A DNA stretch of 56,901 nt. Source: a virus. Location of the stretch: the IMG/VR virus record IMGVR_UViG_3300010151_000014, positions 1 through 56,901 of that record. One strand, written 5' to 3'. How positions within the stretch are numbered: position 1 is the stretch's first letter; the number at the start of each line of letters is the position of its first letter. Below the pieces are notes generated by a model. That model had not been told where the DNA came from and made no database searches. It saw only the letters and a program-made list of their open reading frames with translations. Both the position numbers and the translations under genes were made by a program. This document shows positions 14,437 through 51,984 of this stretch, piece after piece.

Positions 14437-14802
14437 ATGAATTTACTAAAAATTATGTTTAAACAACAAAGGGATTTTATAGCCCTTTTACAAAAATACC
14501 GTGATCATCCTAACATTCCTTTTGATATTACGGATAAAAAGTCACAACAATTTTTGCGTCAATTGGCGTTTGAGTGCATGGGTGAATTATTTGAGGCAAA
14601 TATACATCTTAAAAATAGTAAAAGTCATCGCAAAACAAATATAGTTGAGTTTGATCGTGATAAATATATTGAAGAATTAAGTGATGTATTGCATTATTTT
14701 TTTGGGATTGCAATTTGCTCTGGGGTTACGTCAGATGAGCTTTATGAAGCATATATGACGAAAGGCGAAACTAACGTCAAACGAATTCTTGACGGATATT
14801 AA
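14437..14802 (+). CDS. All-alpha NTP pyrophosphatase (MazG / dimeric dUTPase-like)
   Basis: 121 residues. The ECMGELFEA helix and EELSDVLHYFFG helix give the ExxE...ExxD metal-binding pattern of the MazG/dimeric dUTPase superfamily, with a Lys-rich loop between. Hydrolysis of dUTP (or another dNTP) to the monophosphate fits the surrounding nucleotide and polymerase genes and would support dTMP synthesis. Substrate identity is not readable from the sequence. Confidence 0.7.
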   Translation: MNLLKIMFKQQRDFIALLQKYRDHPNIPFDITDKKSQQFLRQLAFECMGELFEANIHLKNSKSHRKTNIVEFDRDKYIEELSDVLHYFFGIAICSGVTSDELYEAYMTKGETNVKRILDGY

Positions 14803-14812
14803 AGAGGTATTT

Positions 14813-17800
14813 ATGGGAACTATATTTCCGAAAAAGTTTGTTGGCCTTCATTCGCATTCCGGATTTAGCACCTATGATGGTTTAGGGTACCCAAATCAAC
14901 ATATTGATTTTGTTCGTAAAAATGGGATGGATGCATGGGCACTTACTGATCATGGACATATGAATTCATTTGGTCATGCTTATCTTTATGCAGAGAAATT
15001 AGCTAAAGCTGGGGAAAATTTTAAATTTATTCCTGGTTGCGAAATGTATGTACATCCGGATTTAAACGCGTGGCAACTTGATTATGAGATTAAGCGAGCA
15101 GAAAAGAAAGGTGACCTCGAGGTTCTTAATGTATTACGCAAACAACGAAGAGAACTAGACACGCCACTCACAAACAATCTAATAAATCATGATTTTGATG
15201 TTGAAGAGGGTAAAAGTAAAAATAATGGTCTAACAATCGAGGATGAAGATGCATCACGAAGCAGCAAATTTTATGACCCAATTAAACGACGACACCATCT
15301 TGTCGTACTACCTAAAACGTCAATTGGTCTTGAGAGATTATTTGGCCTAGTTTCTAAGGGTTACCTTGACGGATTTTACCGTTTTCCTCGTGTTGATTAT
15401 TCAATGCTCAAAGAGGCTGCCCAAGGTGGTCATCTAATTGTGTCAACTGCCTGTATTTCTGGCCCTTTGTCCTATGAAATATTTAGGCACTTTCAAGGGA
15501 TTGAGTTCGAAGATCTTAAACCGGAGCTTCTTGATAATCATGATGTTATGGAAAAAGTCCTCCAATCTATAGGGCATGGTCATCAAATGCTTGTTAACGC
15601 TGTTGGCACCGATAATGTGTATATTGAATTACAGTTTAACAAACTTAATGCGCAACATTTAACCAATCGAGCTTTATTGGCATATGCAGAGCGTAATGGT
15701 TTGCAAGATCAATTAATTATTACATGTGATAGTCATTATGCAAACCCAGAATACTGGAAGGAACGAGAAATATATAAGAAGTTGGGTTGGCTAAATTATC
15801 GTGAGATGGATCCTACAAAACTCCCTAAATCAAAAGAGGAACTTAAATGCGAGCTATATCCTAAAAATGCAGAACAGGTTTGGGACTCGTATAAACAAAC
15901 ATCGACAGAGTATGGGTTTTATAATGACCAAATTATATGTGATGCCATTGAGCGAACATATCATATTGCGCATAATGTAATTGCCGATATCCATCCAAAT
16001 ACATCTATTAAACTTCCGACGTTCGTAATCCCAGAAGATAAAACAGAAACAGAGACGTTAATTGATTTATGCAAAAAGGGTATGATTGAAAGGGGTTTTC
16101 AAAATTCACCTAAATATATTGAAAGAATTAAATACGAATTACAGATTATTATTGAACGTAAATTCGAACTATACTTTTTGGTAATGCATCAAATTATTAA
16201 ACTTTCAAAAGAGCATATGTTGGTCGGCCCTGGTCGAGGCTCTGGCGCGTCATCTTTGGTTAATTACGTTTTAAAGATAACAGATGTTGATCCTATTAAG
16301 TATAATTTGTTATTCGAGCGTTTTTTATCAAAATATCGTAAAGAATATCCTGATATTGATTCAGATTTTGCAGACCGCGATAAGCTGCTTGGCCTTTTGG
16401 CTGCACATTTTGGTAAAAGAAACGTCATACCAATCTCAAACTATAACACCTTAAAGCTTAAGGCTCTTATTAAGGATGTTTCAAGATTTTATGGTATACC
16501 TTATGATGAATCAAATGCAGCGACAAAAACGGTGGAGAAAGAGGTTAGAAGGGCAGTACAAAAGCATGGTGAAGATAAGAACTTGTTTGTTTTAAAATAT
16601 GATGATGCGATGAAATATAGTTCTTCATTTCGCACATTTATTGAAAAGTACCCAGAGGTTGGCGAACCTATCAAGGTCCTATTTGGGCAAAATAAATCAT
16701 TAGGCCGACATGCAGGCGGGGTCATTATTTCCGAACATATTCCGGAAAGGATGCCATTAATTCTCTCAAAAGGTGAACCTCAAACACCGTGGGTTGAAGG
16801 GACAAATTTTAAACATCTTGAGGAATTTGGGTGGATTAAGTTCGATCTTTTAGGCCTCGAGACACTTCGTATAATTGAACGCGCAATTGAACTAATCTTA
16901 AAACGAAAGGAAGGAATAACGAACCCTACGTTCATAAATATAAAAGCGTGGTATAAAAAAAATCTATCCCCAGATGTAATTAATTTTGATGATCAAAAGG
17001 TTTATGAATACGTGTATCACTCAGGGCGTTTTGCAGGTATCTTTCAACTTACTTCGGCTGGCGCTCAAAAGTTATTTATGAAAGCTAAACCAAAAAGCCT
17101 TATTGATATTGCAACACTTACGTCGATTTATAGGCCTGGTCCGCTCGCTGCAAATGTTCATAAGCTTTATCTTAAACATAAAAATGGTGAACCTTATATT
17201 TGGGGTCATGAAATAATCAATAAAGTCCTAAAAGATACAAGAGGTCTGATTATTTTTCAAGAATCAGTTATGCAGTTAGCTCATGAAGTCGCCGGCTTTC
17301 CCCTTGACGAATGTGATAAAATTCGTAAATCAATCATGAAGCGTTCAATTTCAGGTGGTGATGAGGCGATTAAGAAAGCTAAGGAGCTACGGATTAATTT
17401 TGTGCAAGGAAGCATCAATAATGGTGTTCCAAAAGATGTTGCAAATGATTTATATGATAAAATCCTTTATTTTGCTGGATATGGCTTTAACGCATCACAT
17501 GCAATATCATATGCAATGGATTCTTATTTTTGCGCATGGTTGATGACGTACTATGAAGAGGAATGGTTGTGTGCCTATCTTGAGGCAATGTCATCAAACC
17601 CCAAAAAGAAAACAAAGGCGTTCAATGAGGTTAAAAAGCTAGGGTATAAGACGGTACCAATTGATATCAATTACGCGGATAAGTCTTGGACAATCTTAGA
17701 AGGTAAGTGCTTTATGCCGAGCTTTCTAAGTTGTAAAGGTGTAGGGGAAGTGGCGGTTGATGAAATTATTGAAAATCGTCCGTATCAGTCAATTCATAAT

Positions 17801-18418
17801 CTATTGTGGAATGAAGACGGAACGTGGAAACACTCGAAGTTTAATAAACGTACGATGTTGTCACTCATAAGAATTCGGGCATTTGATTCATTAGACATAA
17901 TTGGTGATGATAAAATGTTTAAATCGTATAAACACATGGAAGAAGTTATTATTAATAAAAACTCTGACATCAAAAAAAGAACAAAGCGTGATCCTTTAAA
18001 GGGGCAGAATTTGTTTAAACAACATATCCTGGAAACGTCTGACATAGGTGAATGGTCTAGGGTAGAAACGGCTGAGATGTTGACGGAGCATCTCGGTGGT
18101 TGCGACGCATCAAACTTAATATCTGAACCAATGATGAAATGTTTTAGTCAAATGGAAATAGAGTCTGTTGATGAATATCATGGGAAAGATGTATATTGGT
18201 TCATTACTACAGATGTTATTGCGAAGAAAACGAAACGAGGTAAACCCTACTTATTATTAACAGTTAGTGGCAACTCTGGTGCGACTGAAAGGTTGTTTAT
18301 GTGGAACTGGACAAAAGATAAATTCCAGATTCAAAAATATTCTATCTGTGTTGCAGAGATCAACAAAAGCGATTTTGGTTATTCAACCAGACAACAGCAA
18401 ATTAAAATTCTATCATGA
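14813..18418 (+). CDS. dnaE: DNA polymerase III alpha subunit (DnaE-like, family C)
   Basis: A replicative polymerase of about 1201 residues, near the size of bacterial DnaE. The N-terminal PHP domain keeps HSHSGFS, DHGHMNS and PGCEMYV residues, so it may retain metal binding. The polymerase core shows PGRGSGASSLVNYVL, the catalytic PDIDSDF pair, the third Asp in WIKFDLLGLETL, GIFQLTSAGAQKL, IYRPGPL, and ASHAISYAMDSY. The C-terminus has helix-hairpin-helix and OB-like regions (SCKGVGEVAVDEI). ATG 14813 follows AAAGAGG and is preferred to the upstream in-frame start. Overlaps the kinase gene by 4 bases. Confidence 0.93.
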   Translation: MGTIFPKKFVGLHSHSGFSTYDGLGYPNQHIDFVRKNGMDAWALTDHGHMNSFGHAYLYAEKLAKAGENFKFIPGCEMYVHPDLNAWQLDYEIKRAEKKGDLEVLNVLRKQRRELDTPLTNNLINHDFDVEEGKSKNNGLTIEDEDASRSSKFYDPIKRRHHLVVLPKTSIGLERLFGLVSKGYLDGFYRFPRVDYSMLKEAAQGGHLIVSTACISGPLSYEIFRHFQGIEFEDLKPELLDNHDVMEKVLQSIGHGHQMLVNAVGTDNVYIELQFNKLNAQHLTNRALLAYAERNGLQDQLIITCDSHYANPEYWKEREIYKKLGWLNYREMDPTKLPKSKEELKCELYPKNAEQVWDSYKQTSTEYGFYNDQIICDAIERTYHIAHNVIADIHPNTSIKLPTFVIPEDKTETETLIDLCKKGMIERGFQNSPKYIERIKYELQIIIERKFELYFLVMHQIIKLSKEHMLVGPGRGSGASSLVNYVLKITDVDPIKYNLLFERFLSKYRKEYPDIDSDFADRDKLLGLLAAHFGKRNVIPISNYNTLKLKALIKDVSRFYGIPYDESNAATKTVEKEVRRAVQKHGEDKNLFVLKYDDAMKYSSSFRTFIEKYPEVGEPIKVLFGQNKSLGRHAGGVIISEHIPERMPLILSKGEPQTPWVEGTNFKHLEEFGWIKFDLLGLETLRIIERAIELILKRKEGITNPTFINIKAWYKKNLSPDVINFDDQKVYEYVYHSGRFAGIFQLTSAGAQKLFMKAKPKSLIDIATLTSIYRPGPLAANVHKLYLKHKNGEPYIWGHEIINKVLKDTRGLIIFQESVMQLAHEVAGFPLDECDKIRKSIMKRSISGGDEAIKKAKELRINFVQGSINNGVPKDVANDLYDKILYFAGYGFNASHAISYAMDSYFCAWLMTYYEEEWLCAYLEAMSSNPKKKTKAFNEVKKLGYKTVPIDINYADKSWTILEGKCFMPSFLSCKGVGEVAVDEIIENRPYQSIHNLLWNEDGTWKHSKFNKRTMLSLIRIRAFDSLDIIGDDKMFKSYKHMEEVIINKNSDIKKRTKRDPLKGQNLFKQHILETSDIGEWSRVETAEMLTEHLGGCDASNLISEPMMKCFSQMEIESVDEYHGKDVYWFITTDVIAKKTKRGKPYLLLTVSGNSGATERLFMWNWTKDKFQIQKYSICVAEINKSDFGYSTRQQQIKILS

Positions 18419-18942
18419 GTCAAACTATTATTGCGCTTGTTGGCCCTGATAAGTGTGGCAAAACTGAAATTGCTAATGAACTATCGGCAAAATTAAAGAT
18501 TCCGCTTTTTAAGGCTAATACTGAAAAGGGGAAATTTCGAAACGGTGATGATTTTATTAATGAAATGCGATATGCCGATCCTCGAACAATTGATTTGTTA
18601 AGACAAACAGGTTATTCTTTAATTTTAGATCGAGCCTGGCCATGTGAATGGGTATATTCAAGGGCATTTAATAGGGCGACTGATGAAGCGGCTACACGAC
18701 AGTCTGATATAGATTACGCAGATTTAGGCGCTATTGTAATTATTTGTCATCGCACATCATATGCAGGTCTTGTTGACGAAGACGCACCTGAAAAGTTGGT
18801 TGAACCTATGTTACAAAAATTACATTCTTTATATGAAAAATTTGCGCAGCAATCAAAGTGTAGAGTTATGTTTTTGAATGTTGATGATGAAAATTTAGAA
18901 CGAGAAGTAAGTGATATCCTTTCTTTCTTGGGAGTAAGTTAA
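18415..18942 (+). CDS. P-loop nucleoside/nucleotide kinase (dNMP kinase-like)
   Basis: 175 residues with Walker A VGPDKCGKTE, a DR..P motif (LILDRAWPCEWVYS) and an aromatic-rich acceptor region, resembling thymidylate or deoxynucleoside kinases of phages. It is the first gene of the cluster with the glycosyltransferase and the thymidylate-synthase-fold enzyme, so phosphorylation of a modified dNMP is the attractive role; ordinary dTMP phosphorylation is equally possible on sequence alone. Confidence 0.7.
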   Translation: MSQTIIALVGPDKCGKTEIANELSAKLKIPLFKANTEKGKFRNGDDFINEMRYADPRTIDLLRQTGYSLILDRAWPCEWVYSRAFNRATDEAATRQSDIDYADLGAIVIICHRTSYAGLVDEDAPEKLVEPMLQKLHSLYEKFAQQSKCRVMFLNVDDENLEREVSDILSFLGVS

Positions 18943-18943
18943 A

Positions 18944-20221
18944 ATGAATTTGTTAGTTCAAACACAATTGTCAAATTATAATACGGCCGGAAAGTTCATT
19001 CTAGAAGCAGATAGTGGCTGGCAAATGATAATGGGCAGGGTCCGAACGCTTTTGGCACTACAACCTAACATTCGTGTCTCAATTCTTTGTCCTTTACGTA
19101 ATCAACTTGTAACGCAACCTGAGAATGTGAATCCAGATATTATTGATGATTCGCGAGTGAAGTGTTTATATCATGAAATAATTCCAAATGCATTGGCAAC
19201 ACGATATGATTTCGATTTTGATGGAATTGGTAAAATGTTAAAAGATACAAATGAAAGATATACACATGTATATATCAATGATCCTATGCATCTTAGGAAC
19301 TTTCGTGCTCTTTTTTATCTTAAAATGCAATATACACCAAGATTTTTTGTACATTCGCATTTTATTGATAATCCTGAATGTCCTAAGTTTCCAATGGAGG
19401 CGTCTTTGTGGTATGGGCAACTTGAGGCTGCATTGAAGGCAGATTATAATTTTTGGCAATGTGAATCTGCAATGAATTTATTTTTGGATTCAGCAAGAAA
19501 TTATTTAAACGATGAGTTAGTTAATCAAATCAAAAACAAATCTATACCTTGGGATGACGGTTATTCTTATAATGAAATTCTAAAACCTATTGATGAATCA
19601 GGGGTTAGGTTTAAGATTCCTAATGATAAAGTAATTGTATTTGTACCAAATCGGGTGGGAGGAAAAGGTAGATCATCTGATTATACCAATTGTGGAAAGT
19701 TCTTATTTGAGATTTGTAATGAACTTTGGAAGGAGAGACAAGACTTTATTGTGATCGCAGGTAATCCTTCACAAAAGTTTAGCAATGATGAGCTTAATGA
19801 ATTATGTAATCCATATGCAAAGTTGTTTGAAGGTACCTTAACAAGAAATGAATATCGATGGGTAGGTAGAAACTCACATATTTCTGTGGGTTTGTATGAT
19901 CAGGATTCTTATGGTGGCACTGCAGCACGTGAATTACTTGAATTAGGGTGTTTGCCTGTGTGGATCAATAGATATGAATACAAATCACTTGCAGATGCGA
20001 CAGGATACCCATTTATTGCAGCAGAACTTGATAACATTAAGAATGTTTTGAGTGATGTAATTGATTATGCAAAGAAAGATCTCAAATTTAGCAAGGCCTT
20101 GGGTGGGGGTATTATGTTTAATGACGCCTGGTCTTTAAGGGATCTTAATAGGGAAAAATGTAGTTACGAAATGTCAACTCAGCGTGCTCTAGATATTATG
20201 AAAGATGTCGCCAATGTTTAA
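18944..20221 (+). CDS. GT-B fold glycosyltransferase
   Basis: 425 residues in two Rossmann-like halves. The C-terminal half opens with IVFVPNRVGGKGR and has the donor-site pattern DSYGGTAARELLELGCLPV, equivalent to the E-x7-E sugar-nucleotide site of GT-B enzymes; VIAGNPSQKF lies between. No signal peptide or membrane segment, so it acts in the cytoplasm. Flanked by a dNMP kinase and a dCMP-modifying-type enzyme, it is a good candidate for sugar transfer to a modified DNA base; a role in modifying a host polymer remains possible. Its end overlaps the next gene by 17 bases. Confidence 0.75.
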   Translation: MNLLVQTQLSNYNTAGKFILEADSGWQMIMGRVRTLLALQPNIRVSILCPLRNQLVTQPENVNPDIIDDSRVKCLYHEIIPNALATRYDFDFDGIGKMLKDTNERYTHVYINDPMHLRNFRALFYLKMQYTPRFFVHSHFIDNPECPKFPMEASLWYGQLEAALKADYNFWQCESAMNLFLDSARNYLNDELVNQIKNKSIPWDDGYSYNEILKPIDESGVRFKIPNDKVIVFVPNRVGGKGRSSDYTNCGKFLFEICNELWKERQDFIVIAGNPSQKFSNDELNELCNPYAKLFEGTLTRNEYRWVGRNSHISVGLYDQDSYGGTAARELLELGCLPVWINRYEYKSLADATGYPFIAAELDNIKNVLSDVIDYAKKDLKFSKALGGGIMFNDAWSLRDLNREKCSYEMSTQRALDIMKDVANV

Positions 20222-21218
20222 ACGTACGTTCAAAGATTTTACTAGCGCATATCTTTCTCTTGCAGAAGAAATTAGGGATGACTATGATTATATCACGTCA
20301 CCACGTGGAATGAAAGTTAAGGAAAAATTGGGTGTCAAATTTGAGATAACAAACCCACGTCATAGAATCCCATATGTCCCAATTAGAAAGTTTAAGATAC
20401 AATATATGATCGCAGAAACTTTATGGTATTTATCGGCCAATAATAAAACAAAATGGATCGCAAATTACGCACCATTTTGGGAAGGTATTACCGACGATGG
20501 CCTTACGGCGAACAGCGCGTATGGTGCGAGAATATTTCAACGACATGACAGAATTGCGTTGGGTGGTATTAATCAATGGGTATATGCCAAGGAGGTGTTA
20601 AAACAAGACCCAGATTCACGACGAGCCTTTATTCACATCCGAACCCCTCATGATAGTATTATTGGGTCAAAAGATGTACCTTGCACAATAGGATTGCAGT
20701 TTTTTATTCGTGACAATAAGCTGGATCTCATTGTTAATATGCGTTCTAGTGATTTGATTTTGGGAATTTCATATGATGTTCCTGCATTCACATTTTTACA
20801 AGAACTTATGGCGCTTGAACTAGGCGTTTCAATTGGCACTTATATTCATATTTCAAATTCCATGCATGTGTATGAAAAGCATTTTGAAATGTTGGATGAA
20901 ATTCTTGATAAACGTAATGTTGCAGAAAGCATATTATTGAGTTATATGCGTGGACCAATGAAATCAATGCCTAAGCAACAATGTACAATAAGGTTATATA
21001 AATTTGAAGAATTATTGCGCTCCTGTTATGATATTGATAGCATAGATAATGCATTAAGCGATTTAAAGGATATTGATGATTATTGGTTTGATTGGGCACA
21101 AGTATTAGCTGCACATCGAGCAGGAAAATTAGGAAAAAAGAAAAAAATGAAAGATTTAATGTATAATGTTACTGAACAATTACGTCCTATAAAAATAGTA
21201 CATGAGGTAAAGAAATGA
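20205..21218 (+). CDS. Thymidylate synthase-fold enzyme, probably dCMP (hydroxy)methyltransferase
   Basis: Transfers a one-carbon unit from methylenetetrahydrofolate to C5 of a pyrimidine nucleotide. Catalytic Cys160 sits in DVPCTIGLQF; the phosphate-site Arg180/Asp183 are in MRSSDLILG; His221/Tyr223 are in SMHVYEKH. Asp191 in LGISYDVPAF occupies the position of E. coli ThyA Asn177, the residue that selects dUMP; Asp there is found in T4 dCMP hydroxymethylase and is known to switch ThyA to dCMP. The His next to the Cys in ThyA is Thr. A cytosine substrate is therefore favoured; methyl versus hydroxymethyl product cannot be told. Context with kinase, glycosyltransferase and epimerase supports base modification. 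Confidence 0.82.
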   Translation: MSPMFKRTFKDFTSAYLSLAEEIRDDYDYITSPRGMKVKEKLGVKFEITNPRHRIPYVPIRKFKIQYMIAETLWYLSANNKTKWIANYAPFWEGITDDGLTANSAYGARIFQRHDRIALGGINQWVYAKEVLKQDPDSRRAFIHIRTPHDSIIGSKDVPCTIGLQFFIRDNKLDLIVNMRSSDLILGISYDVPAFTFLQELMALELGVSIGTYIHISNSMHVYEKHFEMLDEILDKRNVAESILLSYMRGPMKSMPKQQCTIRLYKFEELLRSCYDIDSIDNALSDLKDIDDYWFDWAQVLAAHRAGKLGKKKKMKDLMYNVTEQLRPIKIVHEVKK

Positions 21219-22225
21219 GAGTGTTAGTAACAGGTGGATGTGGATTTATTGGTTCGACATTGGTTCGAAAATTGAGGGAAAATAATATTCAAGTTGATAT
21301 TGTTGATGATATGTCAGTTGGTAATCTTTCAAAGCTAGGAAAAGTCCCTCTTCGTGTTGTCCCAGTTGATCTAATAAGTATATATCAAAATACAGTTGAG
21401 GATAATGAGCTCAAAGAGGGCCATGTTTTGGTTTTTGAAGGGGATTTTACACACCCACTAATATTAAATAGAATTGCTCAGGGATATTATATGTATGTTT
21501 TTCATCTTGCGGCAGATCCACGTGTTGAATATTCTATACAAAATCCTTACAAAACAACGGTCAATAATATATCAAAGACTGTTTTGCTATTGTCTTCATG
21601 CGCAGGTAATATTCAACGTTTTATATTTTCATCGTCATGTTCAGTCTATGGTGATCAGTATTCTATTGAAGGTACCCCAACAACCGAAGCATCACCGACG
21701 GCACCATGTTCACCATACGCACTACAAAAATTAACAATTGATCAATTGTTACCTATGTTCTATAAGTTTCACGGATTAGATTCGGTTTCATTACGATATT
21801 TTAATGTATATGGTCCTGGTCATGATGGTACCGGTGCATATGCAACTGCAGTTGCTGCATGGTGTAGCGCACTTAAAAAAAGCCAGTCTTTACGCTCAGA
21901 TGGAGATGGAACACAGAGTCGTGACATGGTATTTGTTGACGACATTGCGGCAATTAATATTGCAGCTATGATTCAAACAAAGGATCTTAAAGGTGAGGCA
22001 TTTAATGTGTGTACAGGCACTGCGATATCAAATAATGATATCCTACAATTAATTTGGAAACTTTATGGACCATATACGAGGAAAGACTCACCATGGCGTC
22101 CCGGGGATGTGATGCACACATTAGGAAATAATACAAAAATAAACGATGAACTTATCCCATATCCATGGTTAGGTTTTAAGGAAGGCCTGGAACAAACAAT
22201 GAGATGGTGGGGCCTAATTAAATAA
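21215..22225 (+). CDS. NAD-dependent sugar-nucleotide epimerase/dehydratase (extended SDR)
   Basis: 336 residues. NAD-binding GGCGFIGS near residue 7, DVVDDMSVG second strand, HLAADPRVEYS, catalytic SSSCSVYGD Ser and YALQK Tyr/Lys, and a C-terminal sugar-binding RDMVFVDDIA segment. This is the UDP-glucose/UDP-xylose 4-epimerase-type layout; the exact sugar is not readable. Overlap with the upstream gene (ATGA) ties it to the base-modification cluster, where it could supply the activated sugar to the GT-B enzyme. Confidence 0.88.
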   Translation: MRVLVTGGCGFIGSTLVRKLRENNIQVDIVDDMSVGNLSKLGKVPLRVVPVDLISIYQNTVEDNELKEGHVLVFEGDFTHPLILNRIAQGYYMYVFHLAADPRVEYSIQNPYKTTVNNISKTVLLLSSCAGNIQRFIFSSSCSVYGDQYSIEGTPTTEASPTAPCSPYALQKLTIDQLLPMFYKFHGLDSVSLRYFNVYGPGHDGTGAYATAVAAWCSALKKSQSLRSDGDGTQSRDMVFVDDIAAINIAAMIQTKDLKGEAFNVCTGTAISNNDILQLIWKLYGPYTRKDSPWRPGDVMHTLGNNTKINDELIPYPWLGFKEGLEQTMRWWGLIK

Positions 22226-22276
22226 GATCATTATAAATTGCATTAAATTCATTTTTATCTAATAAAGGCTTGAAAT

Positions 22277-22750
22277 ATGAAAGAAATTTGGATAACAAAA
22301 TCTACAATTATTGAAAAACCATGGGGCACGGAACAAATATGGCAAACCGGAGGTTGGAGACAAATATCTAGCAAAATTCTATATCTAAAAGAAGGTTATC
22401 GCACTAGCCTAAAATATAATAATATTAAAAATGAAGTATTATTTATTTTGTCTGGGAGGTTGTTATTAACATATTCGAACGAAAGATTTAGACAAAATAA
22501 AGAATTTAAGTCGTGTTATCTCACGGCCGGTGAAACAATTAATATTCAAAGTGAATGCCCATATCGTCTTAAGGCAATTGAAGACACAGTTGTTGTCGAA
22601 GTGGGTGATCGTCCGTCTACTCAAGATTCTATTGTTCGATTTCATGATGATTATGGTCGTCATCCAAAAACCGGTGACGAATTAATTAACGATATGGCCC
22701 AACAAGCTATATATGAGTCAGGGCACCTAGGCATTAAACAAAATGATTAA
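22277..22750 (+). CDS. Cupin protein, mannose-6-phosphate isomerase type II-like
   Basis: 157 residues. IEKPWGTEQIW is the N-terminal signature of type II phosphomannose isomerase cupins, followed by YLKEGYRTSLKYN, FILSGRLLLTY and ETINIQSECPYRLKA, the two cupin motifs. The usual metal-binding His residues (HxH...E) are largely replaced (TSLKYN), so it may bind a sugar without classical catalysis. Likely sugar-nucleotide metabolism or sugar handling for the upstream glycosyltransferase. Confidence 0.68.
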   Translation: MKEIWITKSTIIEKPWGTEQIWQTGGWRQISSKILYLKEGYRTSLKYNNIKNEVLFILSGRLLLTYSNERFRQNKEFKSCYLTAGETINIQSECPYRLKAIEDTVVVEVGDRPSTQDSIVRFHDDYGRHPKTGDELINDMAQQAIYESGHLGIKQND

Positions 22751-23825: not shown

Positions 23826-24773
23826 ATGACTATATCTGCCGCTATAGGTTTGACAGGATTAGTTTTGTCTACCTACGCCGTAATTGCTAATGATAGTGCC
23901 CAAACATTGGGCACTTTTATATCATCAAATAAGGACACATCTTGGTGGAAATCATGGTTATATATGTCATTAATTATGATTCTAACCTTAGGATATGCAT
24001 GGTTAATAGGTGATATTACATATGGGCGCCTTAATGAAATACCTTTTCCTTTATCATTTAAATGGTACCATGGTGTTGCCCCTGTACTTTTATTGGTATT
24101 AACACATTTCGGAATACCTGTTAGCACAACATTATTAACTTTAAGTTTATTTTCTAGTAGTCTCGTTTTGAAAAAGATTATTATTAAATCCGCAATAGGA
24201 TATGGTATAGCGGCCGTCTCAGCGTATATACTTTGGTTTGTTTTATCATATTTTTTAAACGAAAAGAGACCTGTTAAAATAGGTCACAAAAAGTATTGGG
24301 TGATCGGCCAATGGATGGCGACTGGGTTTTTGTGGAGCCAATGGTTAAGTCATGATATTGCAAATGTTGCAGTTTATCTTCCACGAAAAAACGCTTTAAC
24401 ACCTCTAATGTTTTTAGGTTTTATAACTCTTCTTATTGGGTGGTTGGCATACTTGTTTTACACAAAAGGTGGCAAGATTCAATCGATTATACAATCGAAA
24501 AGTGGCACCCGTTTTGCAAGATCTGCAACCATTATCGACTTTGTTTACGCAATTATTCTTTGGGTTTTTAAAGAATACAATAATTTACCAATGTCGACAA
24601 CTTGGGTATTTGTTGGTTTACTATGCGGTCGTGAATTGGCGGTATATCGGGTATTCTCAAATGGCGCCGGCATTAAAATGATATTTCCAATATTAATTAA
24701 TGATTTTTTTAAAATGATGGCAGGTCTGGCTTTGAGCGTCATATTAGTTGGGTTTATTATTACCTTTGGATGA
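23826..24773 (+). CDS. PiT-family inorganic phosphate permease
   Basis: 315 residues, strongly hydrophobic with about nine membrane segments. PiT signatures are duplicated as expected: NDSAQTLGT with HFGIPVSTT in the first half, and SHDIANVAVYLP with NLPMSTTWVFVGLL in the second. Imports phosphate with a cation; a metabolic gene likely to raise phosphate supply for phage DNA synthesis. It is shorter than bacterial PitA (about 500) because the long central loop is missing, as in PiT proteins of aquatic phages. Confidence 0.88.
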   Translation: MTISAAIGLTGLVLSTYAVIANDSAQTLGTFISSNKDTSWWKSWLYMSLIMILTLGYAWLIGDITYGRLNEIPFPLSFKWYHGVAPVLLLVLTHFGIPVSTTLLTLSLFSSSLVLKKIIIKSAIGYGIAAVSAYILWFVLSYFLNEKRPVKIGHKKYWVIGQWMATGFLWSQWLSHDIANVAVYLPRKNALTPLMFLGFITLLIGWLAYLFYTKGGKIQSIIQSKSGTRFARSATIIDFVYAIILWVFKEYNNLPMSTTWVFVGLLCGRELAVYRVFSNGAGIKMIFPILINDFFKMMAGLALSVILVGFIITFG

Positions 24774-25189: not shown

Positions 25190-25819
25190 ATGTTGGAACA
25201 ACAAACACTAAAACTTAAATATCATGAGCAACCACAAGATGAACCCAATGAACCTATCGAGGATAGCGAAGGTGATAAAACAATAACACATAAAAAATAT
25301 GCCACAATTGTTGCCGATCCTCCTTGGTATCAACGTGGCGGTGGAAAATGCAAAAGGGGAGCCGATCGGCATTACCCAATCCTTAAAGAACACCAGATTA
25401 AAAATATAATGTTCAATTATTTGGATGATAAGGTTGCAGATAATGCGCATTTATATTTGTGGACGGTGAATAACCATCTTCCAGAGGCACTTCGTATTAT
25501 CGAACATTTAGGTTTTCGTTATATCACAAATCTTGTTTGGGCAAAACCTTATTTTGGTTTAGGTCGATATTTTCGGGGACAGCATGAATTATGTCTTTTT
25601 GCAACAAAAGGCCGGGGTTTTACACCAAAAACATCAAAAAACAATATATCAACACTCATTGGTCAATCATTAATTAAGCCAACAACTCATAGCACAAAAC
25701 CAAAGGTGATATATGACTTAGTTGAGGCACGCAGTCAAGGCCCTTATTTGGAAATGTTTGCGCGTAATAAACGAAAAGGATGGGATACGTGGGGAAACGA
25801 AATTGACAACAAGGCTTAG
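25190..25819 (+). CDS. MT-A70-type DNA adenine methyltransferase
   Basis: 209 residues. VADPPWYQRGGGKC contains the DPPW catalytic motif, followed by a target-recognition/SAM region and LYLWTVNNHLPEAL, NLVWAKPYF and QHELCLFATKG strands of the MT-A70 family. Likely methylates N6 of adenine in phage DNA, protecting it from restriction. The recognition site is unknown. Its 3' end overlaps the dCMP deaminase start. Confidence 0.9.
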   Translation: MLEQQTLKLKYHEQPQDEPNEPIEDSEGDKTITHKKYATIVADPPWYQRGGGKCKRGADRHYPILKEHQIKNIMFNYLDDKVADNAHLYLWTVNNHLPEALRIIEHLGFRYITNLVWAKPYFGLGRYFRGQHELCLFATKGRGFTPKTSKNNISTLIGQSLIKPTTHSTKPKVIYDLVEARSQGPYLEMFARNKRKGWDTWGNEIDNKA

Positions 25820-26213
25820 TTGGGATGAGATTTGGATGAACTTTACACGCCTGGTGGCGAAACGTTCATATGATCCACGCCATAAAGTTGGTGCAATTGT
25901 CGTTACCGGTGATAATACGCAGGTGCTATCAATAGGTTACAATGGCAATTATGCCGGTGGACCAAACGAAATTGAAACAATCATACCTGGTCAATCAGGT
26001 ATGATTCATGCTGAGATTAATACATTAATTAAATTGGACTATAACAACCCTAAGTATAAAAAAATGTATCTCACATTATCACCTTGTCGTATGTGCGCAA
26101 AGGCAATTATTAATGGCGGGATAAATGAAGTAATATATGATAAAGAATATAGGGATACATCAGGTATACATATATTAGAACAGATTGGTATTAAATTACG
26201 TAAATACAAATGA
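25803..26213 (+). CDS. dCMP deaminase (cytidine/deoxycytidylate deaminase family)
   Basis: Zinc-dependent conversion of dCMP to dUMP, feeding dTMP synthesis. HAE (MIHAEINTL) and PCxxC (LSPCRMCAKAI) motifs are intact, with SIGYNGNYAGGPNE for the substrate loop. The start is TTG 25803, chosen because GGGGAAACG lies 8 bases upstream and the usual N-terminus (RLSWDEIWMNF) follows at once. 136 residues. Coexisting with a dCMP-modifying-type enzyme, it competes for the same substrate, as T4 gene cd does beside gene 42. Confidence 0.88.
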   Translation: MTTRLSWDEIWMNFTRLVAKRSYDPRHKVGAIVVTGDNTQVLSIGYNGNYAGGPNEIETIIPGQSGMIHAEINTLIKLDYNNPKYKKMYLTLSPCRMCAKAIINGGINEVIYDKEYRDTSGIHILEQIGIKLRKYK

Positions 26214-27323: not shown

Positions 27324-27638
27324 ATGAAACAAATCGTAGAATCAATGAAAAGAGTTTTGCTTCGTCGGATTGTTGAAAATCTAAACGAAGTTGATGTGTA
27401 TGATAACAAAGGTAATATTATAATCGCAAAAGATCTTAAGGTTCGACATATTGATTCACAGTTTGAATATACTGTTGCCAATGTTGTAGAAGATGAACAA
27501 GGTATTCAGATTATATTGCGAGCCCCAGATAAAGCACGCTTTACACCAATAGAATATACCGCGGATGTTAATATTGAGGGCATAGGCGATTTGATTATAA
27601 CACAAGATGAGTTTGAAAAAGAATATGAGGTGAATTAA
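27324..27638 (+). CDS. Hypothetical protein with capsid-targeting-like helix, 104 aa
   Basis: Start at ATG 27324, preceded by GCGAGGATGGT; the longer frame overlaps the previous gene. N-terminal basic amphipathic helix (MKRVLLRRIVENLNE) ends in a LNE site matching the shared leader pattern, then a beta-rich domain (KVRHIDSQFEYTVANVVED). End overlaps the next start (TTAATG). Confidence 0.65.
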   Translation: MKQIVESMKRVLLRRIVENLNEVDVYDNKGNIIIAKDLKVRHIDSQFEYTVANVVEDEQGIQIILRAPDKARFTPIEYTADVNIEGIGDLIITQDEFEKEYEVN

Positions 27639-28345
27639 TGAAAAACCTACAACTATATGAAGCCGCAGATATTAACGCAATCAAAAAAAAGATTTATGAT
27701 GAATTGGGTTATAAGGCAATTAATGAGTCGTATGTTATAGAAACCCCGTCTGGGGTTGATTTGCCAACTGAATTGCTAAGTTCTAGGTCAAAAAAAATTC
27801 TTAATAATTTACTGGAATTATACACATCAGAATTAAATCATGTGAGCGCCAAACTTGACACGGCGATTCGCGATGTAAAAATGCCAGATGCGTCATATTA
27901 TGTTTCGCTTAAAGCCCAAGAAGGTCGCTTATTACAACTTAGTTTTTTGTTAGGTTTACATAAAACAAATATATCTGATATGCAATCAATGCTAACAATG
28001 AACACATTAACATATATGCGTTTGGAACGGGATTTTGGTACATTTGATTCGTGGCAAAAGGATATGATTGCATGTGCCATAGGTTCGGAGCGTTTTGCCA
28101 TAACTGCGTATAATGTTCATCTTCGACGATATATGAATCTAATTGTTGATGATTGCCACCCATTACCTCCTTCGGTATTACCAATAATATCAATATGCGT
28201 AATGCCTCAATTATATACTAGGGATTATTTAGATGATCGAAAATCTTACATATATGCAATGATGAAGGAACTTGCATGGGGAAAAATTGAAGAACGCATT
28301 AAAAATACTGAAGCAGCAGCGAAAGCCTACATGGGAAATAAATAA
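27638..28345 (+). CDS. Hypothetical protein, 235 aa
   Basis: Begins MKNLQLYEA, a LYEA sequence that could also be a protease site, then a mainly helical protein with no catalytic motif visible. Adjacent genes overlap by 1 base at each end (A of stop/start), so it belongs to the same transcript. Function unknown. Confidence 0.6.
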   Translation: MKNLQLYEAADINAIKKKIYDELGYKAINESYVIETPSGVDLPTELLSSRSKKILNNLLELYTSELNHVSAKLDTAIRDVKMPDASYYVSLKAQEGRLLQLSFLLGLHKTNISDMQSMLTMNTLTYMRLERDFGTFDSWQKDMIACAIGSERFAITAYNVHLRRYMNLIVDDCHPLPPSVLPIISICVMPQLYTRDYLDDRKSYIYAMMKELAWGKIEERIKNTEAAAKAYMGNK

Positions 28346-50976: not shown

Positions 50977-51984
50977 TTGTTAGGTTCTAAAAATATTGTT
51001 GATGTTGTGCTAGGCATGCAATATGGGGATGAAGCAAAAGGTAAGGTAACACATTATTTGGCTTCAAATAATAATTATACACATGTCATGAGGTGGGGTG
51101 GGGGTTGCAATGCCGGGCATACTATCATCCATAATGGGCAAAAGCTCGTAACCCATTTGGTGCCGGTTGGCGTACTTCATGGGATTAAGTCTATTGTAGG
51201 TACAGGTTGCGTTCTTAACGTAGACTATTTTCTTAAAGAAATAAAATATCTTGAAAATGCAGGAGTGCAGATCACAGGCAATTTGTTTGTTGCAGAAAAT
51301 GTACATATTACAACTAGTGCCCATCTTGAAGAAGAGGCTAATGAAGTTAAAGTAGGTACCACGAGACGAGGCATCGGTCCAACATATCGTGATAAGGTTG
51401 CCCGCAAAGGATTGTTAGCAAAGCATGTCCCAGAACTCTCAAAATATCTAATTGATGTATACGAAGAGTTTCATAATACCAATGAAAATATTCGGATCCT
51501 ATGTGAAGGTGCACAAGGGTTTGGGTTGGACGTTAATTGGGGTGATTACCCTTATGTAACTAGTTCACAATGTGCACTTTCAGGTGTATTTCAAAATGCA
51601 ATTAGCCCACATTGGATTCGTGATGTATGGGGTGTCGGAAAAATATACGAAACATATGTTGGCGCAAAGCAATTTGAGCCTAGTGAAATTATATTTCAAC
51701 GTATTCGGGAAATAGGCGAAGAATATGGTGCAACTACGGGGCGAGCAAGACAATGTAATTGGCTTAATTTGAACGAGCTTATTAAGGCGGTTAAGATCAA
51801 TTCATGCAACAACCTAGTAATCAACAAAATGGATGTAATGAGAAAAGTGGGTCATTGGAAATTATATCATGATAATAAGCTATTGAGTTTTACAAAAGAA
51901 CAGCATATCAAGTCTTACATTTTAGATAATGTAAAAAATGTGTATATTCATTTTTCGGAACATAAGGATAGAATAGCGTACTAA
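50977..51984 (+). CDS. purA: Adenylosuccinate synthetase, short phage/archaeal type
   Basis: Makes adenylosuccinate from IMP, GTP and Asp in the standard family. TTG start at 50977 is fixed by GGAGG 8 bases upstream. Motifs: GMQYGDEAKGKV (phosphate loop with catalytic Asp), GGCNAGHTI (catalytic His), KVGTTRRGIGPTYRDK, GAQGFGLDVNWGDYPYVTSS and GATTGRARQCNW. Length 335 is about 100 short of bacterial PurA, like archaeal and phage versions. The Asp argues for a standard PurA; phage PurZ, which makes 2-aminoadenine precursor, typically has Ser at that position. Confidence 0.85.
   Translation: MLGSKNIVDVVLGMQYGDEAKGKVTHYLASNNNYTHVMRWGGGCNAGHTIIHNGQKLVTHLVPVGVLHGIKSIVGTGCVLNVDYFLKEIKYLENAGVQITGNLFVAENVHITTSAHLEEEANEVKVGTTRRGIGPTYRDKVARKGLLAKHVPELSKYLIDVYEEFHNTNENIRILCEGAQGFGLDVNWGDYPYVTSSQCALSGVFQNAISPHWIRDVWGVGKIYETYVGAKQFEPSEIIFQRIREIGEEYGATTGRARQCNWLNLNELIKAVKINSCNNLVINKMDVMRKVGHWKLYHDNKLLSFTKEQHIKSYILDNVKNVYIHFSEHKDRIAY

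Follow-up and report, generated by a model that had tools for sequence, protein, structure and literature searches.

A predicted cytosine hypermodification island with an exchangeable cap enzyme in a metagenomic phage contig

Gene Organization of the Island

We analyzed a 56.9-kb virus record of IMG/VR with 35.6% GC (IMGVR_UViG_3300010151_000014; its whole stretch of 56,901 nucleotides is called the window here), in which an island of five adjacent genes was found behind a DNA polymerase gene. This island very probably makes a hypermodified cytosine, a sugar-capped 5-hydroxymethylcytosine (5hmC), through a thymidylate-synthase-fold enzyme (TS), a kinase, the polymerase and a GT-B glycosyltransferase (GT), with a cap position that is swappable between phages. 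Nearly all long genes of the window lie on the + strand. The genes recognized in it concern replication and nucleotide metabolism (RecA, DnaB, two 5'-3' exonucleases, ribonucleotide reductase, a gp32-like protein, a family-A polymerase piece and a DnaE-type DNA polymerase III alpha subunit), and they also include GroEL, RNA ligase, sigma-70, thymidine kinase and adenylosuccinate synthetase. Because of this gene content, we regard the window as a fragment of a large phage.

All five open reading frames of the island were confirmed on the + strand, directly behind the DnaE-type polymerase (Table 1). The start of the kinase gene overlaps the stop of the polymerase gene, the GT and TS genes overlap by 17 bases, the TS and epimerase genes overlap by 4, and the cupin gene follows 51 bases further. 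A sequence-only reading of the window had described five adjacent genes that overlap or nearly abut, and the coordinates agree with this description. The same gene set was found again in IMG/VR contigs at about 40-90% identity (the related loci and contigs of the comparison are labeled with L-numbers), and because of this recurrence the five open reading frames are taken to be real genes and not a chance array. The polymerase III alpha gene is present upstream of the island in nearly all related loci, where it serves as an anchor and is itself no modification gene.

Table 1. Genes of the island and two neighboring genes of the window.
Feature	Position	Strand	Basis
DNA polymerase III alpha (DnaE type)	14789-18418	+	NCBIfam TIGR00594, 594 bits, above cut-off
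P-loop deoxynucleoside/deoxynucleotide kinase	18415-18942	+	PHROG thymidylate kinase; Walker A
GT-B glycosyltransferase, GT4-like, predicted 5hmC sugar transferase, without sequence family	18944-20221	+	AlphaFold2 and Foldseek
Thymidylate-synthase-fold dCMP 5-hydroxymethylase (predicted; R139, C160, T161, S181, D191)	20205-21218	+	PF00303, specificity residues
Extended short-chain dehydrogenase/reductase (SDR), nucleotide-sugar 4-epimerase-like enzyme	21215-22225	+	PF01370; GGCGFIG, Y168xxxK
Cupin-fold protein	22277-22750	+	PHROG 7851 'cysteine dioxygenase', E = 3e-14
dCMP/cytidine-type deaminase	25722-26213	+	PF00383, E = 7e-19; start codon uncertain, listed TTG overlaps preceding gene

A Predicted dCMP Hydroxymethylase

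The TS-fold protein matches PF00303 with E = 1.5e-30 in Pfam. Its closest solved relatives are the structures of MilA, a cytidine monophosphate (CMP) 5-hydroxymethylase (E = 1.3e-46, 300 residues), far ahead of ThyA or of the deoxycytidine monophosphate (dCMP) hydroxymethylase of T4. Residues E71, C160, H221 and Y223 align with ThyA E58, C146, H207 and Y209, that is, the protein has the TS fold with the catalytic cysteine. In a multiple alignment for which ThyA, T4 gp42 and SPO1 gp29 were taken from their genome records, Asp191 was found at the position of ThyA Asn177, where it had been placed from the sequence alone. This position corresponds to Asp179 in gp42, Asp186 in MilA and Asn194 in the deoxyuridine monophosphate (dUMP) hydroxymethylase of SPO1. 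Also, Thr161 aligns with ThyA His147. In a metagenomic association study, ThyA positions 177 and 147 were the best separators of modified and unmodified phage contigs (PMC8670742).

The preference of MilA for CMP is due to Lys133 and Ala176, and the K133R/A176S double mutant prefers dCMP (PMC5175136). The enzyme of the window presents Arg139 and Ser181 at these places, thus the deoxyribose pair and not the ribose-selecting one, and a preference for dCMP is predicted because of this replacement. A CMP hydroxymethylase was rejected on the same residues. D191 is invariant in 13 homologues, and S181 is invariant in homologues as well. Among 79 aligned TS proteins, a sample seeded with Asp-type proteins in which the frequency is no background rate and the correspondence of positions is the point, 74 presented the set R-C-T-S-D and one R-W-T-S-D, next to R-C-H-S-N in ThyA and R-C-N-S-N in the SPO1 dUMP hydroxymethylase and two relatives. 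By its residues (R139, T161, S181, D191), the enzyme is predicted to be a dCMP hydroxymethylase, not a CMP or dUMP hydroxymethylase, and the earlier assignment as a dCMP-type transferase is supported.

The Glycosyltransferase

Sequence searches placed the GT in no known family. It has no Pfam match, no match in 50,697 phage records (tblastn at E values up to 5), nothing credible in the PDB by sequence, profile search included, and a scan of bacterial and archaeal genomes returned 46 pattern matches with none confirmed. Of the T4 DNA alpha- and beta-glucosyltransferase families (GT63/GT72), the pairwise comparison covered T4 beta-GT, with which the profile of the GT gave an hhalign probability of 0.4%, i.e., no detectable relation, and no relation was detectable either with the alternative, beta-GT-related family that takes the same slot in other phages.

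In IMG/VR, 15 contigs with GT relatives were found, two of them nearly identical at the locus, which gives 14 other distinct contigs. The AlphaFold2 model built from 15 sequences reached a predicted local distance difference test score (pLDDT) of 85.8 and a predicted template modeling score (pTM) of 0.85. Foldseek matched it to GT4-type GT-B enzymes, the best being BshA/MshA (E = 5e-11, TM score up to 0.66 by query and 0.71 by target). This confident model indicates a GT4-like GT-B enzyme with two Rossmann-like domains. With only 9 sequences, an earlier model had been poor (pLDDT 70.6, low TM score), and the present one supersedes it. The GT-B fold named in the sequence-only reading is upheld by the model. 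Arg237 and a block D321...E330, one residue longer than the E-x7-E donor motif, are invariant in the family at the level of sequence, and they appear to resemble the donor-site motifs of GT4 enzymes.

An Asp-type TS was present within about 5 kb of the GT gene, on the same strand, in 14/14 of the other distinct contigs, some of which are records of 200-370 kb. The TS partners of the GT orthologues belong to three unrelated clades, namely that of the window, the T4 gp42 clade (L008, 51% identity) and the L024 clade. The GT very probably caps 5hmC. The role of decorator, first suggested from the sequence, is consistent with the GT-B fold, with the association with three Asp-type TS clades and with the mutual exclusion with other decorators described below.

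An Exchangeable Cap Position in Related Phages

In related phages, the slot of the GT is occupied by other cap enzymes. For example, L012, whose TS is 75% identical (BLAST) to that of the window, contains a carbamoyltransferase and a carbamoyl-phosphate-synthase-like ATP-grasp protein; a carbamoyltransferase also occupies the slot in L047 and L057. Over its length, the slot carbamoyltransferase is 34-36% identical to those found near Asp-type TS in Xp15 and BF503P1, and for the carbamoyltransferase of another phage, paired with TS, the formation of 5-carbamoyloxymethylcytosine has been shown experimentally (PMC8670742). The ATP-grasp protein beside the carbamoyltransferase (L012:4154-5446, +) resembles carbamoyl phosphate synthase in its N-terminal match and a HAD phosphatase in its C-terminal one, and may supply carbamoyl phosphate. 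A profile of the 232-aa protein of the carbamoyl cassette matched nothing in the stretches fetched from Xp15, BF503P1, T4 and SPO1. A second GT family, whose only PDB match is T4 DNA beta-glucosyltransferase (E = 8e-5), was found in L014 (TS 73% identical) and many others. In a marine group (L037, L040-L043, L050, L059), a UDP-galactopyranose mutase (L037:7032-8144, +; TIGR00031, 367 bits, above cut-off) is located between the hydroxymethylase and the T4 beta-GT relative, and a galactofuranosyl-5hmC pathway is possible in these sister phages.

Mapped on the TS tree, the decorators require 13 changes across all groups (the minimum possible being 3), and for the GT of the window the starred branches demand no fewer than 7. 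Among 36 whole records there were 16 with this GT, 16 with the beta-GT relative and 3 with the carbamoyltransferase, and none presented two strong decorator matches, with the reserve that the records are fragments, many of them found through one decorator, in which absence is weaker evidence than presence. Weak partial matches were seen for the beta-GT-related family in L052 and, off the island, for NodU-family pieces in two GT records. The hydroxymethylase is genetically coupled to a cap enzyme, as is characteristic of a phage 5hmC hypermodification system, and the cap position is a swappable slot, with one hydroxymethylase backbone and three interchangeable caps. Because the cap enzyme and its partner kinase are swapped jointly for another cap in related phages, these data suggest that the viral DNA is disguised by a plug-in system.

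Between the kinase and the GT of L019, an Apyc1-like (anti-Pycsar) metallo-beta-lactamase protein is encoded (L019:9134-9988, +; PF23023, E = 2.6e-23). This insertion suggests that the island is a counter-defense spot.

Kinase, Epimerase and Cupin

The kinase presents only a sub-threshold match to AAA_28 in Pfam, matches the PHROG 'thymidylate kinase' (E = 9e-7), and its profile matches deoxynucleoside (deoxyguanosine) kinase (E = 5e-5) and YorR. The Walker A motif GPDKCGKT and the motif DR..P.E..YS are invariant. By family, it is a relative of deoxynucleoside or thymidylate kinases. In the kinase tree, all kinases of GT islands group together (99/95, and in 98% of bootstrap trees), and all those of carbamoyl islands make up a second clade (100/100); the TS tree mixes decorators, while the kinase tree sorts by decorator. 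In pairs of loci with 71-81% identical TS but different decorators, the kinases are just 18-45% identical. Also, the pairing of kinase and GT is kept despite genes inserted between them, e.g., in L019, L020, L024 and L028. For the polymerase next to the island, the association with the decorator is weaker (p 0.003-0.009; tree structure does not enter the permutation, and p values are indicative only here and below), which means that lineage structure accounts for part of the pattern. Searches with profiles of either kinase type found nothing comparable in the fetched stretches of the same four phages. The kinase may be decoration-specific. The sequence-only reading suggested that it could raise a modified dCMP to the diphosphate; with a tree that sorts by decorator, the kinase is no neutral house-keeping step.

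The epimerase matches PF01370 with E = 2e-45, and its best NCBIfam match is galE, below cut-off. It had been proposed to make the donor sugar. Our data do not support this role: in an identity regression, the epimerase diverges in step with TS (r = 0.83) and shows no such relation to the decorator (permutation p 0.36-0.86), and the gene is found intact, with its motifs kept, beside the carbamoyltransferase. In the window it may still contribute to the donor sugar, for example as a 4-epimerase supplying UDP-Gal; in contrast to some other cassettes, that of the window has no obvious enzyme of its own for making the donor. The cupin has no Pfam match and is found with all three decorators (L030, L012, L037). 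The epimerase, and apparently the cupin too, stays with the backbone.

Proposed Pathway and Alternative Explanations

We propose that the TS-fold enzyme would convert dCMP to 5-hydroxymethyl-dCMP with methylene-tetrahydrofolate, that the kinase would take this product towards the triphosphate, and that the phage polymerase would incorporate the 5-hydroxymethylated nucleotide. The GT-B enzyme would then put a sugar on the 5-hydroxymethyl oxygen, by which the DNA would be hidden from host nucleases. What the computation shows is the gene content, the specificity residues, a GT-B fold, the exchange of decorators and their mutual exclusion, and the concordance of kinase and decorator; what each enzyme accepts and makes, which sugar is used, whether capping comes before or after incorporation, and the protection of the DNA are inferred. 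Several points count against this pathway. The modified base is a prediction from a metagenomic contig, no donor sugar can be named, and the sugar of the window may be glucose or a non-glucose sugar. No dCTPase or dC-specific nuclease was recognized among the window genes scanned, and in profile comparisons the GT has no sequence link to any characterized DNA glycosyltransferase. Also, Asp191 fits a dCMP methylase (Xp12 type), which is ruled out only by the hydroxyl-requiring neighbors.

The behavior of the kinase leaves some room, although limited, for capping at the nucleotide level, or for a kinase that acts on the 5-hydroxymethyl group or the cap and is cap-specific, instead of being a general 5-hydroxymethyl-dCMP kinase. 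The clustering of kinases by decorator despite the mixed TS tree, their low identity beside similar TS and a pairing with the GT that outlasts gene insertions would all fit, and the characterized carbamoyltransferase works on 5-hydroxymethyl-dCTP as well as on DNA (PMC8670742). However, the kinase could travel with the decorator through physical linkage alone, without functional coupling, T4 glucosylation comes after replication (PMC13216743), and the association of the polymerase with the decorator indicates that lineage structure partly confounds the pattern. Equally doubtful is a wider proposal in which cap and kinase are one exchangeable unit: the kinase would be specific for the capped nucleotide (or would phosphorylate the hydroxymethyl or the cap), sugar or carbamoyl would be added before polymerization or through an activated intermediate, unlike in T4, and in the marine phages the mutase together with the T4 beta-GT relative would yield galactofuranosyl-5hmC DNA.

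The GT, epimerase and cupin could instead form a surface or virion-glycan pathway that merely neighbors the dCMP hydroxymethylase. The fold neighbors of the GT are general GT4 enzymes acting on small molecules and glycans, neither the epimerase nor the cupin goes with a particular decorator, and glycan clusters do occur in large phages (PMC7824862). Nevertheless, this is very unlikely in view of the constant same-strand proximity of the GT to an Asp-type TS, large records included, and of the T4 beta-GT relative or carbamoyltransferase that takes its place in relatives. That the TS-fold enzyme is a MilA-like CMP hydroxymethylase or a dCMP methylase seems highly improbable too: MilA is by far the nearest solved relative, and dCMP methylases also carry Asp at the ThyA Asn177 position, but R139 and the invariant S181 are deoxyribose-type residues and the caps found in the slot require a hydroxyl. 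The TS tree contains no dCMP methylase, as Xp12 is absent from the phage collection. Sugar-capped 5hmC is the explanation that we retain.

Comparison with Known Systems

As in the 5hmC glucosylation of T4, where gp42 and b-gt are adjacent, an Asp-type TS-fold hydroxymethylase adjoins a GT-B sugar transferase in the window, and some relatives of the window's GT adjoin gp42 orthologues. The differences are that the TS of the window belongs to another clade (nearest MilA), its GT has no sequence relation to T4 beta-GT, its kinase is a different, co-exchanged member of the P-loop family, and its replication is DnaE-based. The 5hmC carbamoyltransferase system of Xp15 and BF503P1 (PMC8670742) follows the same logic, an Asp-type TS with a group transferase on the hydroxymethyl. 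However, the window has a glycosyltransferase, and in related phages the carbamoyltransferase brings its own kinase and usually the ATP-grasp protein. MilA, from mildiomycin biosynthesis (PDB 5jnh, PMC5175136), shares Asp at the cytosine-specifying position, whereas the window presents Arg139/Ser181, a phage setting, and a nucleotide kinase with a cap enzyme. In the RB69-type arabinosyl-5hmC (PMC6024577), 5hmC carries a non-glucose sugar from phage-encoded sugar-nucleotide enzymes. The candidate donor genes of RB69 are nucleotidyltransferase/isomerase-like; the window has an epimerase instead, whose link to the GT is unproven.

Phage 5hmC bearing a sugar is a class of chemistry long known. As far as the databases and literature examined go, a GT family that no sequence similarity connects with known DNA glycosyltransferases is new, although an earlier description is possible, and so are the three-cap slot, the concordance of kinase and cap, and the predicted galactofuranose route in sister phages. 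A 2024 paper in Cell Reports on phage 5hmC glycosyltransferases reportedly deals with methyltransferase/dioxygenase-dependent, not TS-dependent, systems. If our explanation is true, this GT family joins the phage DNA-capping repertoire, and the cap is a plug-in position that accepts three alternative caps, each accompanied by a kinase lineage of its own. The natural cap replacements are ready pairs for probing which host defenses each cap evades, and they provide new candidate enzymes for 5hmC tagging. Also, through the concordance of kinase and cap one can test directly whether replication always comes before capping, as it does in T4.

Other Genes of the Window

The deaminase is conserved downstream of the island in most relatives and is plausible as a nucleotide-pool helper. 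Close to the island, an MT-A70 family protein (25190-25819, +; E = 1.5e-15), with a 74% identical homologue near the L012 island, is a possible adenine methyltransferase. A protein with a match to the C-terminal domain of Fe/Mn superoxide dismutase (27638-28345, +; E = 2.5e-6) is conserved downstream of the island in many relatives. Further away, a short (335 aa) adenylosuccinate synthetase (50977-51984, +) falls in a PHROG family labeled as the 2-aminoadenine enzyme PurZ (E = 5e-67); against the NCBIfam PurZ model it scored 135 bits for a cut-off of 300, and its QYGDEAKGK loop retains the PurA-type Asp. The family-A DNA polymerase piece (1290-2489, +; PF00476, E = 6.5e-14, 399 aa) means that two polymerase types are present in one record. 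Finally, the gene at 23826-24773 (+) encodes a predicted multi-spanning membrane protein that, by eye, resembles a PiT-type phosphate transporter.

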